A DNA stretch of 50,205 nucleotides, from the NCBI GenBank assembly GCA_024680695.1, contig JAILBW010000071.1, positions 1 to 50,205 of the forward strand, written 5' to 3'. This document shows, piece by piece, positions 4,663-45,537 of the stretch. The position numbers were made by a program, and so were the translations under genes. This DNA comes from Bacteroidaceae bacterium. Its GTDB lineage: Bacteria; Bacteroidota; Bacteroidia; Bacteroidales; Bacteroidaceae. The notes under the pieces were generated by a model. It was not told where the DNA came from. It ran no database searches and worked only from the letters and a program-made list of their open reading frames with translations. Numbering within the stretch: position 1 is the stretch's first letter; the number at the start of each line of letters is the position of its first letter.

Positions 4663-4806
4663 CTTGCCGAAACGTCGCTTTCTGCTTGCGCAAGCAGGGG
4701 CCGATACTTGCGCAAGCAGGGGCCGATACTTGCGCAAGCGGGAGGCATTACTTGCGCAAGCAGGAGACGTTACTTGCGCAAGCAGGAGACGTTACTTGCG
4801 CAAGCA
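4663..4806 (+). repeat. 22-bp-phased palindrome array (CTTGCGCAAG)
   Basis: Six perfect palindromes CTTGCGCAAG with centres at 4689.5, 4711.5, 4733.5, 4755.5, 4777.5 and 4799.5, exactly 22 bp apart. A degenerate seventh at 4667.5 keeps the left half CTTGC in the same phase. The 12-bp linkers are similar but not identical (CAGGGGCCGATA, CAGGAGACGTTA and similar). The array lies in the 465-bp htrA-rnpB divergent spacer, upstream of the rnpB promoter. Confidence 0.85.
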
Positions 4807-14064: not shown

Positions 14065-16569
14065 ATGACCAACAATGACACGCAAACAGAAATAACAATA
14101 ACAGATATGGCAGAATACATTGAGAAACAAAACGCGGAAGTCGAAGAAGAAGGTGGCTTCCAATGGAAGGAAATCTGGACAATCGTTGTGCTCAACTGGC
14201 AATGGATTATTGCGTCGGCTTTCATTGCTTTATGTCTGGCCTTCGCATACCTTAGGTACACGCGACCTGTGTACTCATCGTCCATGAAAGTATTGATCAA
14301 GGACGACGACTCAAAGAAGAGATTCTCCAACGGACAGATGTCGCTGGAGAGCATGGGACTTATCTCGAACAGTAACGGATTCGACAATGAGTTGGAGATT
14401 CTGCGAAGCACGAGCATCAGCACCCGCGTAGTGAAGAAACTAAAGCTCTACGTTAGCTACTACATTCAGGGACGCATCCGCAAAGGTGAGCTCTATAAGG
14501 ACTCCCCCATTCTTGTGGACATGCCCGCAGAGGTGCTGGACACTCTGAATTCTGCTCTCGCCCTGAAGATTACCCAGGCTGACAACAAGTTCCACATTGA
14601 GGGTCGCGCCTACGTCCCGATGGCAAAGGAACCAATAGAGTTCGAAAACGATGTGACAAGCATGCCAAGCAGCATCAATACCCCCATCGGCACTGTTACG
14701 CTCGAGCAGAATCCCGAAGTCGAAATGACTAGCCGTGCCCTCTATGCCTACATCGTGTCGCCTACCGTTGCAGGCCGCGGATGCGCCCACAGTCTCAGTG
14801 CATCGGCCACAAGCAAGACGACGACCGTGGCTCAGATTACGTATCTCGATACGAAAAGGCAGCGAGGCATCGACTTCCTGAACGAACTCATGGAAAGCTA
14901 CAACGAGGATGCCAACGAGGACAAGAACGAGGTGGCTACGAAGACAGAGGAGTTCATCAAGGAACGACTCGACGTGATTCGCGGCGAGCTGGACATGACC
15001 GAAGGCGAACTGGAGAACTACAAGAAGAACAACGAGTTGGTGAATCTGGCCAACGATGCCACGAATGCTCTTTCCAACATCGACGAGTATCGTAAGCAGC
15101 AAGTGGAAATCCAGACGCAGATCAACATCGTCAACGGACTTATCGCATGGCTGAACAAGCCCTCAAATACGGGAGAGATTATTCCGGCAAACCTGGGAGT
15201 CAAGGATGCGAACCTCAACAAGATGATTGGCGACTACAACGACTTCGTACTCCAGCGCAACCGTCTGCTCAAGAGTTCGAGCGAGGAGCACACCTACATT
15301 CAGCGCCTGACGGCACAGATCGACGAGATGTGGCCCTCAATCAAGATGAGCGTTGAGGCCATCAAGGAAGACCTCGACCTGCAGAAGAAGAACATTGACA
15401 AGCAGTACAACAAGTTCAGTGGCCGTATCGGCAGCACACCGACTCAGGAACGCGCACTGAACAACTACACCCGACAGCAGGAAATCAAGGCTGGCCTCTA
15501 CCTAATGCTTCTCGAGAAGCGTGAGGAGAACTACATCTCCCTGAACAGTACGGCAGCAAAGGCACGTATCATCGACGAGCCGCAGTACATGGGTAAGGTA
15601 TCCCCCAAGAGCAAGATGATTATGCTTGCAGCTCTCTTGCTCGGCCTCGCCTTCCCCATCGGCATCGTCTTCCTGCGTAATCTGCTGCGCTTCCGCATCG
15701 AGGGACGCGACGACGTGGAGAAACTCACCTCCATTCCCATTCTGGCAGACATTCCCATGGCAGGCAAGGAGATGGACGGCGAACATGCTCTGGCCGTGCA
15801 GGAGAACAGCAACGACATGATGGAAGAAGCCTTCCGCGGATTGCGCACCAACCTGCGCTTCGTACTCGAAGGCGGAAAGAAGGTCATTGTCGGAACCAGC
15901 TGTATTCCCGGCGAAGGAAAGACATTCGTTGTCACAAACTTGGCAATGTCGCTCGCACTGATGGGCAAGCGCGTCATCATCGTCGGTCTGGACATCCGCA
16001 AGCCGCGTCTCGTACGCTTGTTCAATCTGCCCGCCAACAAGAAAGGTGTCACCACCTACATCAGCTCCGATGAGCAAGGCTACGACCTGCTGAAAGAGCA
16101 GATCATCTGCGGCGTGGCCAACAAGAACCTCGACGTGCTGCCGGCTGGAGTAATTCCGCCAAACCCCAGTGAGTTGATTTCCCGCGAGCAACTTGACCGC
16201 GCCATTAATCACCTGCGCGAGCACTACGACTACGTATTGCTCGACACGCCGCCCGTAGGTCTCGTCAGCGATACGCTTTCCATCGGACGTACAGCCGACA
16301 TCACGCTCTTCATCTGCCGTGCCGACTACACACCGCGCAGCAGCTTCGACCTTATCAACAGCCTGAAGCGCGACGAGAAGCTTCCCAACATCAACCTCGT
16401 GCTCAACGGCATGGACCTGAAGAAGAAGAAGTATGGCTACTACTACGGCTACGGCAAGTATGGCAAGTACGGCAAGTACGGCAAATACGGCTACGGCAAG
16501 TATGGCAAGTACGGCATCTATGGTCACTACGGCCGCACCGACGAGGGCAAGACACATACCGAGAAATAA
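14065..16569 (+). CDS. Wzc-type polysaccharide co-polymerase and tyrosine kinase
   Basis: Inner-membrane bacterial tyrosine kinase that controls polysaccharide polymerisation and export by cycles of autophosphorylation. The 834 residues show a Wzz domain with the first membrane span near residue 45 (WIIASAFIALCLAFAYL), a long periplasmic coiled coil, the second span near 520 (MLAALLLGLAFPIGIVFL), and a cytoplasmic BY-kinase domain. Walker A is GTSCIPGEGKT (about 610), Walker A' VIIVGLDIRKPRL (about 636), Walker B DYVLLDTPP (about 722). The end is a tyrosine cluster of repeated GKYGKY units from residue 789, the expected autophosphorylation tail. ATGs at 14050 and 14107 are alternatives; 14065 gives a leader of about 23 nt. 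It precedes the Wzi-like gene. Confidence 0.93.
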   Translation: MTNNDTQTEITITDMAEYIEKQNAEVEEEGGFQWKEIWTIVVLNWQWIIASAFIALCLAFAYLRYTRPVYSSSMKVLIKDDDSKKRFSNGQMSLESMGLISNSNGFDNELEILRSTSISTRVVKKLKLYVSYYIQGRIRKGELYKDSPILVDMPAEVLDTLNSALALKITQADNKFHIEGRAYVPMAKEPIEFENDVTSMPSSINTPIGTVTLEQNPEVEMTSRALYAYIVSPTVAGRGCAHSLSASATSKTTTVAQITYLDTKRQRGIDFLNELMESYNEDANEDKNEVATKTEEFIKERLDVIRGELDMTEGELENYKKNNELVNLANDATNALSNIDEYRKQQVEIQTQINIVNGLIAWLNKPSNTGEIIPANLGVKDANLNKMIGDYNDFVLQRNRLLKSSSEEHTYIQRLTAQIDEMWPSIKMSVEAIKEDLDLQKKNIDKQYNKFSGRIGSTPTQERALNNYTRQQEIKAGLYLMLLEKREENYISLNSTAAKARIIDEPQYMGKVSPKSKMIMLAALLLGLAFPIGIVFLRNLLRFRIEGRDDVEKLTSIPILADIPMAGKEMDGEHALAVQENSNDMMEEAFRGLRTNLRFVLEGGKKVIVGTSCIPGEGKTFVVTNLAMSLALMGKRVIIVGLDIRKPRLVRLFNLPANKKGVTTYISSDEQGYDLLKEQIICGVANKNLDVLPAGVIPPNPSELISREQLDRAINHLREHYDYVLLDTPPVGLVSDTLSIGRTADITLFICRADYTPRSSFDLINSLKRDEKLPNINLVLNGMDLKKKKYGYYYGYGKYGKYGKYGKYGYGKYGKYGIYGHYGRTDEGKTHTEK

Positions 16570-18728: not shown

Positions 18729-19496
18729 TCAGATCAGGCTCTTGCGAAGCCCACGCACGGCATAGAACATGTAGTAGTATATCGAGCGCCAAACGCTGAT
18801 ATGCTCGATTTCGCGATACACTATCCACTGCCAAGGCACGATGCGCAACTTGTTCGAAGTCACGGAATCGCCACGCACCCGGTAGAGTGCCAGCACGGTC
18901 TGCGTGCTGCGGGCGATGTAGCCGCTCTTCAGGACTGAAAGCCAGAAGGCGTAGTCCTCGTGGTGAATGTTCTCGAAGTAGTACTTCCCCACTTTGCGCA
19001 CATCGAACATTCCCGTCAGATTGCCGATGACATTGCCGTAGAGCAGCTGCTGATAGCTGGTCGTGTCGGGAGTGGAAACGACGCGAGCCGAACGGCGCCC
19101 TTTCTCGTCGATCTTCTCGTAGTCGGAGAACACCACTGCCGTGCGGTTGTCATGGAAGAAATAAGGTATCTGCTGCGAGAGTTTCTCGCGGAGCCACATA
19201 TCGTCGCTGTCGAGGAAGGCAATAAATTCGCCCTTCGCACGCTGGATTCCAAAGTTTCGCGGCGCGGAGGGCATACCTACGGGATCGTCATTGATAAGCA
19301 GTTGGATGCGATTGTCCTGTCGGGCATAGGCTCGAACAACGTCGCACGAATGGTCCGTGCTGCCGTCGTCCACGACCAGCAGCTCCCAATGGGGATAGGT
19401 CTGTCCCATGACGGATTCGATGGCCTTGCCCACAAACTTCTCCGAGTTGTGCATGGGCATGATTACCGAAACGAGATGATGGCCGTGCTTTGTCAT
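18729..19496 (-). CDS. Glycosyltransferase family 2 (GT-A fold)
   Basis: A 255-residue cytoplasmic transferase likely adding a sugar to the lipid-linked repeat unit. It begins VSVIMPMHNSEKFVGKAIES, has DDGSTD (residues 43-48), NFGIQRAKGEFIAFLDSDDMW with the DxD-type metal site DSDD (96-99), and ENIHHEDYAFWL, the usual acceptor-side ED motif. Sugar and linkage cannot be told. It is the last gene of the polysaccharide cluster but is separated from the others by the array at 19620-19741, so it may be expressed on its own. Confidence 0.9.
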   Translation of the reverse strand: MTKHGHHLVSVIMPMHNSEKFVGKAIESVMGQTYPHWELLVVDDGSTDHSCDVVRAYARQDNRIQLLINDDPVGMPSAPRNFGIQRAKGEFIAFLDSDDMWLREKLSQQIPYFFHDNRTAVVFSDYEKIDEKGRRSARVVSTPDTTSYQQLLYGNVIGNLTGMFDVRKVGKYYFENIHHEDYAFWLSVLKSGYIARSTQTVLALYRVRGDSVTSNKLRIVPWQWIVYREIEHISVWRSIYYYMFYAVRGLRKSLI

Positions 19497-19619
19497 ACAA
19501 ATGTTTTTGCGTCCCTTTTATCTTAAGAACGGAAAAAGGGGGCACTTTATTATGTCACACAAGGTTTTTTTCCACGATAAACTTTATCACGGAAAAAAAT
19601 AGCGTGTCGCGGGAAGCGG

Positions 19620-19741
19620 TCCCACGCGTGGGAATGGCTCTTCCCACGCGTGGGAAAAGTTCCTGCTTGCTGTAGTTTCTCTCGACACTTGCGCAAGCAA
19701 ACGCTCACACTTGCTGTAGTTTTTCTCTTTACTACAGCAAG
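19620..19741 (+). repeat. Mosaic 22-bp-phased dyad array
   Basis: Six dyads whose centres fall exactly every 22 bp: TCCCACGCGTGGGA at 19626.5 and 19648.5, CTTGC|TGTAG at 19670.5, CTTGC|GCAAG at 19692.5, CTTGC|TGTAG at 19714.5 and CTACA|GCAAG at 19736.5. Core sequences differ but phase is strictly kept. It sits in the 254-bp gap inside the polysaccharide cluster; the rest of that gap (19497-19619) holds no gene. Confidence 0.85.
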
Positions 19742-19750
19742 TATGGGAGA

Positions 19751-20563
19751 CTACTGCCTTCGGTGCAGCATCTGGCGAACGCCACCCATCATCGTTGCCA
19801 GCATATACGTCGCGAAGAAGCGGAACGAATAGCGGCAAGGTCGGGCTGCGTATATCTTTGTCGCCTTGCACAGGCGGAGCAGCATGTTGGTGAAGTGGTA
19901 CCAGACGGACCTATTGGCGTAGTAGGCGCTCGAGGCACGCTGCCGATACTTGTACAGGACGTCGCGAGCCGTGAAACTGACTGTCTTCATACGGTCGGAG
20001 ACAAGCAGCATGAACTGGCTGTCTTCGCCGTTGCGCAGGTCGGGGTCGAACCGGCGGTCGCCAATCACATCCCGATGGATGAGCTTGCCCCAGCAGACGT
20101 AGAAATACTGTCGGACAGCCTGAAACGGGACGTTACGCGCGTTCTCGCGGAAAGCGTTGGCGATGTAGATGGGACGGAGCGTCGTGCTTCCGTCGTCGAA
20201 TGCCGCTACGTAGGGCAAGGCGATGGTCTCGGGCGAGGCCACCGCAAGCAGGGCCTCCAGATAGCGCTCCGAGACGAGGTCGTCGTCGTCGACGAAGCAG
20301 ACATACTCGCCCGCAGCCTCGTCAAGCCCGCGGTTCCGCGCCAGACTCACGCCGTTGGGTTCGTTGTAGATGAGGCGGCACGGGAGGGCGGGATGCTTTG
20401 CCAGGAAACTCTCTACCTGCGACAGATAGGGTTCCCTCGGTCCGTTCAGCACCACGAGCACTTCGTAGAGCGCATGGTCGAGCGTCTGGGCATCGAGCGC
20501 CTCGAGGCACTCCCACAGGAAGTTGCCGGGCTTGTACGTCGGCAGCACCACACTAATCTTCAT
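19751..20563 (-). CDS. Glycosyltransferase family 2
   Basis: A 270-residue GT-A transferase: KISVVLPTYKPGNFLWECL at the start, VSLARNRGLDEAAGEYVCF, and the acidic metal site VDDDD (91-95). Further on come WGKLIHRDVIG and RNGEDSQFML, the catalytic ED motif. The start at 20563 follows a good GGGAGG Shine-Dalgarno-like stretch. The open frame upstream runs into the next glycosyltransferase gene and is not used. It ends 10 bp from the mosaic array. Confidence 0.9.
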   Translation of the reverse strand: MKISVVLPTYKPGNFLWECLEALDAQTLDHALYEVLVVLNGPREPYLSQVESFLAKHPALPCRLIYNEPNGVSLARNRGLDEAAGEYVCFVDDDDLVSERYLEALLAVASPETIALPYVAAFDDGSTTLRPIYIANAFRENARNVPFQAVRQYFYVCWGKLIHRDVIGDRRFDPDLRNGEDSQFMLLVSDRMKTVSFTARDVLYKYRQRASSAYYANRSVWYHFTNMLLRLCKATKIYAARPCRYSFRFFATYMLATMMGGVRQMLHRRQ

Positions 20564-20580
20564 ATCCACTCCCTCCCTTT

Positions 20581-21669
20581 TCATTTTCTTGCGTACTCGG
20601 CCAGATACTTCCCGACCGTCGTGCTGATGTGGTGAGGCTGGAACGAGGCGCGGCATCGCCTTCTCATCCCTTCGGTCTCCTCCCGGTTCATGGCAAGGAA
20701 GCGCCGCATCGTCCGATAGTATTCCTCCTCGCTGCTGTCCTTTGACAGGAGTCCGTTCTCTCCGTCGCGCAGGACATTCACCACTCCCCCCACGGGACTG
20801 CAGACGGGAATGCAGCCCACGGCCAGCGACTCGAGCAGCGTGATGGGCAGCCCCTCCCACAACGAGGGCAGGCACATGGCGTCGGCCTTGGCCATCAGCG
20901 AAGGCACATCGCTGCGCAGGCCGAGGTAGCGGATTCGCTCCGAGAAGTATGGGCGCAGCGCCTGCAGGATGGCGTCGTCCTCCTCCTTTCCCGCGATCAG
21001 CAACACCACATCGTGTCCCTCGTCGATAAGTCGGCGAAACACTCTCACCAGCACCATCTGGTTCTTCTGCTCCGTGATGCGGCCCGGATGCAGAAACACA
21101 CTTGTCTCTGTCGTCAGACGCGCCTCATCGACGGGGTTGAGGGCATCATCGACCTCAGGCATCGGGATGCCGTTCTCGCACAAAGCACTCTTGCAACCAT
21201 ACAGCTCGGTGAAAGATTGCTGGCTGGCCGGCGAGATGGTGATGGCCGGCACTCGACCGAGACGGAATATCATCTTCTTTACGAAGAAGAAACGTGCGTC
21301 CCACTTGAAGTTCTCCTGCTTCGCATCGTTATGAAACGTGTAGAAGAACTTCTGGCGAGGCAGCATCAGCAGGGCGAAGAGGTAGTAATAGAGGAAGCCA
21401 TGCAGTTGCACCACATCGAAGTGGCCTCGCCTGATGTAGCGATATATGGCGACCACCTCCCGAAGCGAGAAACCCGTACTCCCCTTCCCCAGCGTGTCGC
21501 GATGCACACCTTCCGCAAGGCGGAACCAGAAGATGTCGTCGTCCTTCGGCTGATATATGGAGCAGACGGTGACATCGTGCCCTTGCCGGGCCATTTCGTT
21601 GGCCAGAGAGGTGATGACGGCTTCGATGCCGCCGCCCTGCATCGAGGGATGTATGTGCAATATCTTCAT
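20581..21669 (-). CDS. Glycosyltransferase family 4 (GT-B fold)
   Basis: A 362-residue retaining-type transferase starting MKILHIHPSMQGGGIEAVIT, the usual N-terminal acceptor domain with glycine-rich loop. The C-terminal donor domain holds PGRITEQKNQMVL and the PSLWEGLPITLLESLAVG segment with the E-x7-E type motif. Probably extends the repeat unit of the surface polysaccharide. Operon position: 17 bp before the GT2 gene and 20 bp after the EpsG-like gene. Confidence 0.9.
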   Translation of the reverse strand: MKILHIHPSMQGGGIEAVITSLANEMARQGHDVTVCSIYQPKDDDIFWFRLAEGVHRDTLGKGSTGFSLREVVAIYRYIRRGHFDVVQLHGFLYYYLFALLMLPRQKFFYTFHNDAKQENFKWDARFFFVKKMIFRLGRVPAITISPASQQSFTELYGCKSALCENGIPMPEVDDALNPVDEARLTTETSVFLHPGRITEQKNQMVLVRVFRRLIDEGHDVVLLIAGKEEDDAILQALRPYFSERIRYLGLRSDVPSLMAKADAMCLPSLWEGLPITLLESLAVGCIPVCSPVGGVVNVLRDGENGLLSKDSSEEEYYRTMRRFLAMNREETEGMRRRCRASFQPHHISTTVGKYLAEYARK

Positions 21670-30276: not shown

Positions 30277-30534
30277 CTATTTGCAAAATGCAAAATGCAA
30301 AACATTGCGGGTAGCGGGCAAAAATACGACAGCAAGCAGAGGCTCCCGCGACAGCAAGCACCGGCTCCCGCGACGGCAAGCAGAGGCTCCCGCGACGGCA
30401 AGCAGTAATTTAATCCTCGTCAGGGTTAAGCCAAGCAGCATTCAATCTTCTCATTTTTAAAGTGTAATCCATTCCGTTCGGAAATTTTGCCCAGGGAAAC
30501 ACATTGTTTTTTGCATTTTGCATTTTGCAAATAG
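30277..30534. mobile_element. MITE-like element with 26-bp terminal inverted repeats
   Basis: Perfect 26-bp inverted repeats at 30277-30302 and 30509-30534 (CTATTTGCAAAATGCAAAAT as the outer 20 bases). The inside is about 206 bp, codes for nothing credible, and contains the four-unit 22-bp array. No clear target-site duplication was seen. Together with the tmRNA tail repeat this accounts for most of the gene-free 30154-30731 stretch. Confidence 0.5.
30327..30402 (+). repeat. 22-bp-phased array (CGACA/CGACG|GCAAG)
   Basis: Four dyads with centres at 30331.5, 30353.5, 30375.5 and 30397.5: CGACA|GCAAG twice, then CGACG|GCAAG twice. Linkers CAGAGGCTCCCG are nearly identical. A weak extra site may lie at 30309.5. 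Confidence 0.8.
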
Positions 30535-41277: not shown

Positions 41278-41469
41278 CAATAATTTATTGAACTACCAGC
41301 ACTTTTCCGAGATTTTTATCTTCACAAAGAGAAAAGAATCGCATAAAGATGGCTGACGACTCACCGGCAGAGCGGAAAAGTCAATTGATGTAAGAGGAAC
41401 CTTAAACCTCATCCCGTCTTGGAAAAAAAATGGTGCAGAGAGGAACACCGGTGGATAGCATCCTCCGCG

Positions 41470-41611
41470 CGACAGCAAGCAGGAACGGATGCGACAGCAA
41501 GCAGGAGTTCCCGCGACAGCAAGCAGGAACTCCCGCGACAGCAAGCAGGAACGGATGCGACAGCAAGCAGGAACCGATGCGACAGCAAGCAGGAACCGAT
41601 GCGACAGCAGA
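41470..41611 (+). repeat. 22-bp-phased array (CGACA|GCAAG), seven units
   Basis: Dyads with centres at 41474.5, 41496.5, 41518.5, 41540.5, 41562.5, 41584.5 and 41606.5, all 22 bp apart; the last has GCAGA instead of GCAAG. Linkers vary (CAGGAACGGATG, CAGGAGTTCCCG, CAGGAACCGATG). It occupies part of the 487-bp divergent spacer between the CotH-family and fucosidase genes, upstream of the fucosidase promoter. Confidence 0.85.
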
Positions 41612-45353: not shown

Positions 45354-45537
45354 CAAGAACCTTACAACCTTATAACCTTCAACCTCACAACCTTACAACC
45401 TTATAACCTTACAACCTTAAAACCTTACAACCTTATAACCTTACAACCTTATAACCTTACAACCTTATAACCTTACAACCTTATAACCTTACAACCTTAT
45501 AACCTATAACCTTACAACCTTAAAACCTTACAACCTC
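45354..45537. repeat. AACCTTAY octamer repeat tract
   Basis: About 22 copies of an 8-mer alternating AACCTTAC and AACCTTAT with a few variants (AACCTTCA, AACCTCAC, AACCTTAA). It fills the gap between the fucosidase operon terminator and the 3' end of the LRR gene, where its last bases touch the stop codon. No gene lies in 45188-45535. Confidence 0.9.

Follow-up and report, generated by a model that had tools for sequence, protein, structure and literature searches.

Dispersed, mostly extragenic ladders of DNA half-sites with a constant 22-bp pitch and changing cores in part of the Bacteroidaceae

Plasmid iterons, such as the 22-bp iterons of R6K, place about two helical turns between cooperative binding sites. 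The dRS3/NIME repeats of Neisseria form extragenic mosaic arrays of short palindromes, the spacing and composition of which appear to be unlike those of the ladders reported here, and few REP/BIME sequences are found between divergent genes. BrickBuilt of Porphyromonas gingivalis is described as a minisatellite within a MITE, with a 23-nt unit and 19 copies in strain ATCC 33277 (PMC4596501). The array that we followed up lies at positions 19620-19741 of a 50,205-nucleotide stretch of Bacteroidaceae DNA, called the window below, which is the entire contig C10 of a 3.16-Mb assembly in 235 contigs (83% complete; genome G000). It is not unique, but one of many 22-bp ladders in the genome of this uncultured gut bacterium and in its relatives.

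The window array and its setting

The window array has six cores at a centre-to-centre distance of exactly 22 bp (Table 1). An earlier note on this DNA had described them as six dyads within a polysaccharide cluster, and re-reading of the coordinates and sequences bore out the exact 22-bp steps. The dyad description fits only three of the six cores (TCCCACGCGTGGGA twice and CTTGCGCAAG), the other three being pairs of unlike half-sites (CTTGCTGTAG twice and CTACAGCAAG). Because unit 6 is the reverse complement of unit 5, with which it base-pairs in the predicted single-strand fold, the two can also be read as one longer inverted repeat. As for the cluster, the array does lie between two family-2 glycosyltransferase genes, just upstream of it, in its own direction, being the gene whose stop codon is nine bases away; nevertheless, this location looks incidental, since arrays of this type occur on many contigs. 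Three further 22-bp arrays were found on the contig.

Table 1. Coordinates of the 22-bp arrays of the window and of neighbouring features (a slash marks the centre of a core)
Feature	Position	Strand	Description
Unit 1	19620..19633	.	palindrome TCCCACGCGTGGGA
Unit 2	19642..19655	.	palindrome TCCCACGCGTGGGA, 16 bp with flanks
Unit 3	19666..19675	.	half-sites CTTGC/TGTAG, not self-complementary
Unit 4	19688..19697	.	palindrome CTTGC/GCAAG (CTTGCGCAAG)
Unit 5	19710..19719	.	half-sites CTTGC/TGTAG (CTTGCTGTAG), same as unit 3
Unit 6	19732..19741	.	half-sites CTACA/GCAAG (CTACAGCAAG), in phase
Family-2 glycosyltransferase gene	19751..20563	-	PF00535, E=3.1e-19 on ORF 19751-20875; start codon 20563 chosen from the sequence
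Family-2 glycosyltransferase gene, other side of the array	18729..19496	-	PF00535, E=1.5e-31
Intrinsic-terminator-like inverted repeat	19565..19599	.	between T and A runs, beyond the window array; read from the sequence
Second array	4685..4806	+	six cores of CTTGCGCAAG at 22-bp steps; lies upstream of the RNase P RNA gene
Third array	30327..30405	+	four cores of CGAC[AG]GCAAG at 22-bp steps; lies downstream of the tmRNA gene
Inverted TGCAAAA triplets	30282..30529 (30282-30302 and 30509-30529)	.	around the third array, MITE-like
Fourth array	41469..41609	+	CGACAGCAAG every 22 bp, 6.4 copies

The contig carries repeats of other kinds as well. Nine-base repeats ACATCTATC and TGTGATAGA at 342-371, 410-429, 945-964 and 1003-1032 flank an ORF of 106 aa that has no Pfam match, possibly forming an insertion element with it. 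At 45358-45536, the 8-bp unit AACCTTAC is repeated about 22 times, with a period unlike that of the 22-bp ladders, and in-frame TACGGCAAG repeats at 16442-16533 read as a tyrosine-rich tail that ends a Wzc-like chain-length protein (Pfam domains Wzz, GNVR and AAA_31). Four copies of the 10-bp palindrome CGACATGTCG lie in the window (6716, 25459, 29203 and 32073), compared with a single one in the other 256 kb that were sampled; the palindrome consists of the half-site CGACA twice, yet stands outside the arrays.

The 22-bp pitch is kept across species whose cores differ

The earlier note had proposed looking for 22-bp-spaced half-sites in this genome and its relatives. In the window's genome they are abundant, as GCAAG-N17-GCAAG was found 664 times (343+321) against 16 (7+9) for the reversed control, and 22-bp pairs of the unit-1 core (CCCACGCGTGGG-N10-CCCACGCGTGGG, up to three mismatches) at 11 places against none for the control. 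CGACAGCAAG, the commonest unit of this genome, lacks palindromic symmetry. Elsewhere in the genus (138 other genomes), the GCAAG pattern was mostly near control, with a moderate excess in a few (G020, 41+13 vs 2+3; G090, 36+13 vs 3+4) and raised controls elsewhere, so the GCAAG core is largely specific to the window's species.

The pitch was followed with one array detector, which was run at lag 22 and, as a control, at eleven other lags. For the genus (nine genomes, 995 kb), it returned 73 arrays at lag 22, 25 of them from G000, whose stretches were partly picked for matches, compared with 2-11 at the control lags. A nearly complete relative of another genus, G206, gave 44 against 0-5 in 500 kb, and G239, from yet another genus of the family, gave 6 against 0-1 in 80 kb. 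Counts were low in the remaining genomes: 3 against 0-2 in G207, 2 against 0-1 in G229, zero in both G203 and G224, and 2 against 0-5 over 360 kb from ten genomes of other families. The 7-mer autocorrelation points the same way, lag 22 exceeding the median of the lags that are not multiples of 3 in each of the nine genus genomes sampled (22-280 per 100 kb vs medians of 5-8.5), as well as in G206 (100 kb used) and G239. Nevertheless, some other lag that is not a multiple of 3 scores higher in G013, G017 and G029, the weakest genome of the genus being G017 with 2 arrays in 83 kb, and the lag-22 signal is weak in G207 and G229, while G203, G224 and four genomes, one from each of four other families, do not rise above background. 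The window's genus includes Prevotellaceae bacterium UBA4336 (the L059 genome, with the same places as G007). A lag-22 array was also present in 13 of 13 additional stretches filed under Bacteroidaceae, Bacteroidales, Prevotellaceae, Prevotella or Alloprevotella, several of them from deer and goat; they come from a scan giving 26, about half of which, in unrelated phyla, were set aside.

On this one pitch, different species carry cores of their own (GACCGGTC, TTAGGCCGGCCTAA, AACCAGTSACTGGTT, CCAATCATCG and others). The pitch is therefore conserved across species where the core sequence differs, and the claim that phase is kept more strongly than sequence was supported in the genus as well as in two further genera. 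This pattern suggests recognition of the spacing instead of a single fixed word.

Self-complementarity of the unit exceeded that of 60 column permutations (p<=0.05) in 16 of 21 arrays of G206 (1.1 expected), 13 of 48 in the genus (2.4 expected) and 1 of 5 in G239 (0.2 expected). Across 500 kb of G206, neighbouring dyads stand 22.0 bp apart 43 times, 22.5 bp three times and 21.5 bp never; an additional peak at 11 bp (48) is produced automatically by tandem palindromes. The 43 neighbours have similar cores in 40 cases and strictly dissimilar ones in 2. Beyond the directly repeated part of the 73 arrays, dyads (at least 6/8) were found at the predicted phase in 18 of 432 cases, which may include diverged copies of the same core, at the half-period in 16, and at other offsets in 0-6. 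Strictly dissimilar dyads at 22 bp were not clearly enriched (11 vs a mean of 6.2, sd 5.1), and junctions between unlike arrays fell within 0.5 bp of phase (mod 11) in 10 of 14, eight of the 14 being paralogous G206 copies and the remaining six giving 2/6.

Individual loci, the window array among them, give examples of unlike cores in one phase. In G011 (L090), GACCGGTC is followed by TCTATAGA at exactly 22 bp. Half-sites such as CCCAC, CTTGC, CTACA and CGACA are joined in register at loci other than the window array. Within the set of eight loci L228-L235, several combine the CCCAC, CTTGC and CGACA types in this way: a CTTGC/CTTAG unit follows CCCAC dyads in phase, 22 bp on in L232 and 66 bp past the last full dyad in L231, and hybrids TTTCCCACG/CGCGACAAA or TTTGTCGCG/CGTGG occur in L229, L230, L233 and L234, loci that resemble copies of a single element. 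In RUG606 and UBA4336, runs of CCACA/GCAAG continue in phase as CCAC[GA]/CGTGG at one locus. The earlier claim that half-sites are swapped and re-oriented at kept spacing thus has counterparts at other loci, although the general statistics of dissimilar dyads are weak. The fixed pitch across species is shown, and we regard strict phase between wholly unrelated cores, for which single loci are the main evidence, as likely.

Two repeats in relatives may be recorded here. G013 (L099-L102) has a strong lag-41 signal, 305 per 100 kb, with a period other than 22. Alloprevotella sp. RGIG4970 has long near-homogeneous 22-mer runs with TTTACA/TGTAAA arms at L053:7476-7794, L056:5508-5732 and L058:1-292, all at contig ends.

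Dispersal, folding and alternative explanations

The ladders are mostly extragenic, as 12 of the 73 genus arrays and 6 of the 44 in G206 lie inside ORFs of at least 150 aa, and they are dispersed. RGIG1607 and RGIG9105, whose array is kept unit by unit, are a close pair: over about 330 aligned columns, four substitutions and a single gap were counted by eye. At orthologous flanks, a lag-22 array was present in only 3 of 20 (tmRNA 3' flanks, 2/15; RNase P 5' flanks, 1/5; 0.7-0.85 kb each, taken from some of the genomes with a tmRNA or RNase P match), so no locus-bound function was seen. The three arrays have cores unlike those of the window's genome, and the tmRNA flank L288 holds a 3-dyad chain without a lag-22 repeat. 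A conserved array position was rejected on the 17 flanks without a lag-22 array.

These 17 flanks are also what would be expected if the ladders were non-autonomous mobile elements of the MITE or BIME type, or the cores of such elements, with rungs that serve their own spread through a putative transposase recognising the repeated inner sites. We consider this explanation unlikely. In its favour, the arrays of G206 are carried by an apparently non-coding, dispersed element (about 540-570 bp, with ends taken from the consensus; for example, L182:3250-3850), which consists of a stem-forming box, a variable middle and the 22-bp ladder, with a short inverted repeat visible by eye in the consensus. 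At least 40 box copies exist (40 scored of 109 first-look candidates), and most of 30 copies have a nearly constant offset between the 100-bp box and the ladder (297-300; about -260 in reversed copies), the exceptions being L227, L221 and L207. The same backbone carries, in the same slot, exchangeable rungs of either AAACAATATTGTTT or GTACGGACGCGTCCGTAC. A DNA search for the box in eight other genomes did not find it. In the window, the third array sits between inverted TGCAAAA repeats, and among 17 CTTGC-type arrays of this genome that were compared, its right-hand flank recurs at L080 and L082 and its left-hand flank at L078. Apart from these three TGCAAAA-rich right flanks, two left flanks and one pair with a common leader, most of the 17 arrays share no long flank and have only 18-22 bp matches, which argues against mobility as a general account, and a transposon core alone leaves one pitch with unrelated cores unexplained. 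PDDEXK_2, a putative transposase family, has four matches in G206 but none in G000.

Candidate partner proteins were surveyed in this context. The REP-associated Y1 transposase (PF01797) was not found in G000 (83% complete), G011, G008 or G206, and matched in 9 of 19 searched genomes, with one or two clear matches in G013, G060, G020 and G239 and weak single ones in G007, G029 and G017; as it was not found in the former four, though it is present in some array-bearing relatives, RAYT/Y1 was rejected as the maker of the arrays. Rpn-type PDDEXK_2 was rejected likewise, as its counts (0 in G000, 4 in G206, 4 in G007, 2 in G060 and 8 in G020) do not follow array density. Histone-like HU-HIG proteins, with 5 matches in G000 and no special expansion, were rejected as the binder.

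It is quite unlikely that the arrays act as RNA or single-stranded DNA hairpins at gene ends, stabilising messages or ending transcription in a REP-like manner. The window array does fold far better than shuffled sequence on both strands (z -8.8 and -10.7), with unit pairs forming long stems, as any run of palindromes would. With genes from a simple ORF-based caller, arrays were found in 14/73 convergent, 18/157 tandem and 4/58 divergent gaps of the genus (convergent vs divergent, Fisher p 0.07) and in 9/39, 13/88 and 2/30 of those of G206 (p 0.10); within tandem gaps, the array was closer to the end of the upstream gene in 15/18 and 5/13, respectively. Nevertheless, the RNA hairpin ladder put forward in the earlier note left no strand-specific trace, and selection for it was rejected: among 708 dyad-arm cells in 30 G206 copies (555 paired, 94 other), G-U cells (32) were about as frequent as A-C cells (27), and of 32 tandem gaps, 18 had the better fold on the sense strand. 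Folding of the CGACAGCAAG array is weak (z -2.2), and hairpins would not need a 22-bp pitch. Rfam models gave only RNase P and tmRNA at gathering scores in the window, the arrays matching no RNA family, and three tRNAs and one sub-threshold ctRNA match in L182, L191 and L146, none at the arrays.

Plain minisatellites, in which a 22-bp unit is duplicated by slippage, with incidental symmetry and an inherited pitch, are very unlikely to account for the ladders, for although many arrays are direct repeats, most 22.0-bp dyad neighbours in G206 have similar cores and RGIG4970 has near-identical 22-mer runs (L047, L053, L056 and L058), minisatellite unit length should be unconstrained across unrelated families, and instead one pitch with different cores stands out from eleven control lags in three genera, with symmetry beyond column permutation, half-site combinations and a unit turned about its own centre in phase. 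The RGIG4970 runs suggest that slippage also occurs, so its exclusion in the earlier note was too strong.

A possible protein-DNA ladder and its relation to known systems

The reading that we tentatively prefer, at somewhat less than an even chance, is that the ladders are dispersed series of sites with modular half-sites, to which a dimeric protein would bind cooperatively. On this reading, the window array is a member of a set of dispersed, mostly extragenic, phased half-site ladders in the genus and some other genera of the family, each rung consisting of two half-sites of 5-8 bp around a centre. Because 22 bp is about two helical turns, successive rungs lie on nearly the same side of the double helix, and a pitch of this constancy would point to double-stranded DNA that is read from one face. 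We propose that a dimer would sit on each rung and that contact between adjoining dimers would fix the pitch. Half-site words could turn over between species and swap between rungs because the protein, or its paralogs, would change specificity while the dimer contact held the spacing. The effect may be on local chromosome structure, or the ladders may spread as selfish repeats. More broadly, the conserved trait may be the geometry of a cooperative protein-DNA ladder across genera, with a set of fast-evolving DNA-binding paralogs polymerising on the dispersed, 22-bp-phased sites and either shaping the chromosome or spreading along with it; we speculate on this wider form as possible, but somewhat doubtful.

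Dispersed palindromes of bacteria are normally recognised by their sequence, whereas here the sequence varies and the spacing is constant, over hundreds of rungs in a single genome and across several genera of gut bacteria. A protein that reads the ladder would represent a new, chromosome-wide type of DNA-binding system whose specificity changes fast; should there be none, another cause must account for the constant 22-bp pitch. The constant pitch also allows a motif-free search, and searches by motif would probably overlook what connects the species. At the level of titles and abstract openings, with most subscription journals outside the scope, we found no literature on 22-bp phased dyad arrays in Bacteroidota.

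Among known systems, R6K iterons are direct repeats of one site family at one origin, whereas the ladders are scattered over the chromosome and have many cores. REP/BIME sequences, which are linked to RAYTs, resemble the ladders in being high-copy extragenic palindromes that are often arrayed (PMC3733652). The ladders share the extragenic position and the scarcity between divergent genes (convergent vs divergent, p 0.07 and 0.10, with simple ORF-based genes), and differ in that the Y1 transposase was not found in G000, G011, G008 and G206. To our knowledge, no fixed 22-bp ladder with changing cores exists among REP/BIME sequences. As to the terminal GTAG or CGTC tag of REP sequences, one half-site of the window's genome reads CTACA (TGTAG reversed), and inspection by eye showed no such tag in the cores of other species. 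BrickBuilt resembles the ladders in being dispersed and intergenic, in belonging to the same phylum and in placing a short-unit tandem array between a leader and a tail, to which the G206 element is similar (PMC4596501); most of the 17 arrays of the window's genome lack this layout. The part of the BrickBuilt description that we drew on mentions no unrelated cores, half-site exchange or cross-genus pitch, unlike the ladders here (PMC4596501). The ladders are thus real, widespread within part of the family and, as a whole, outside any one described family: as far as both are known, they resemble BIME and BrickBuilt as dispersed extragenic repeats and differ from them in a kept pitch with changing cores.
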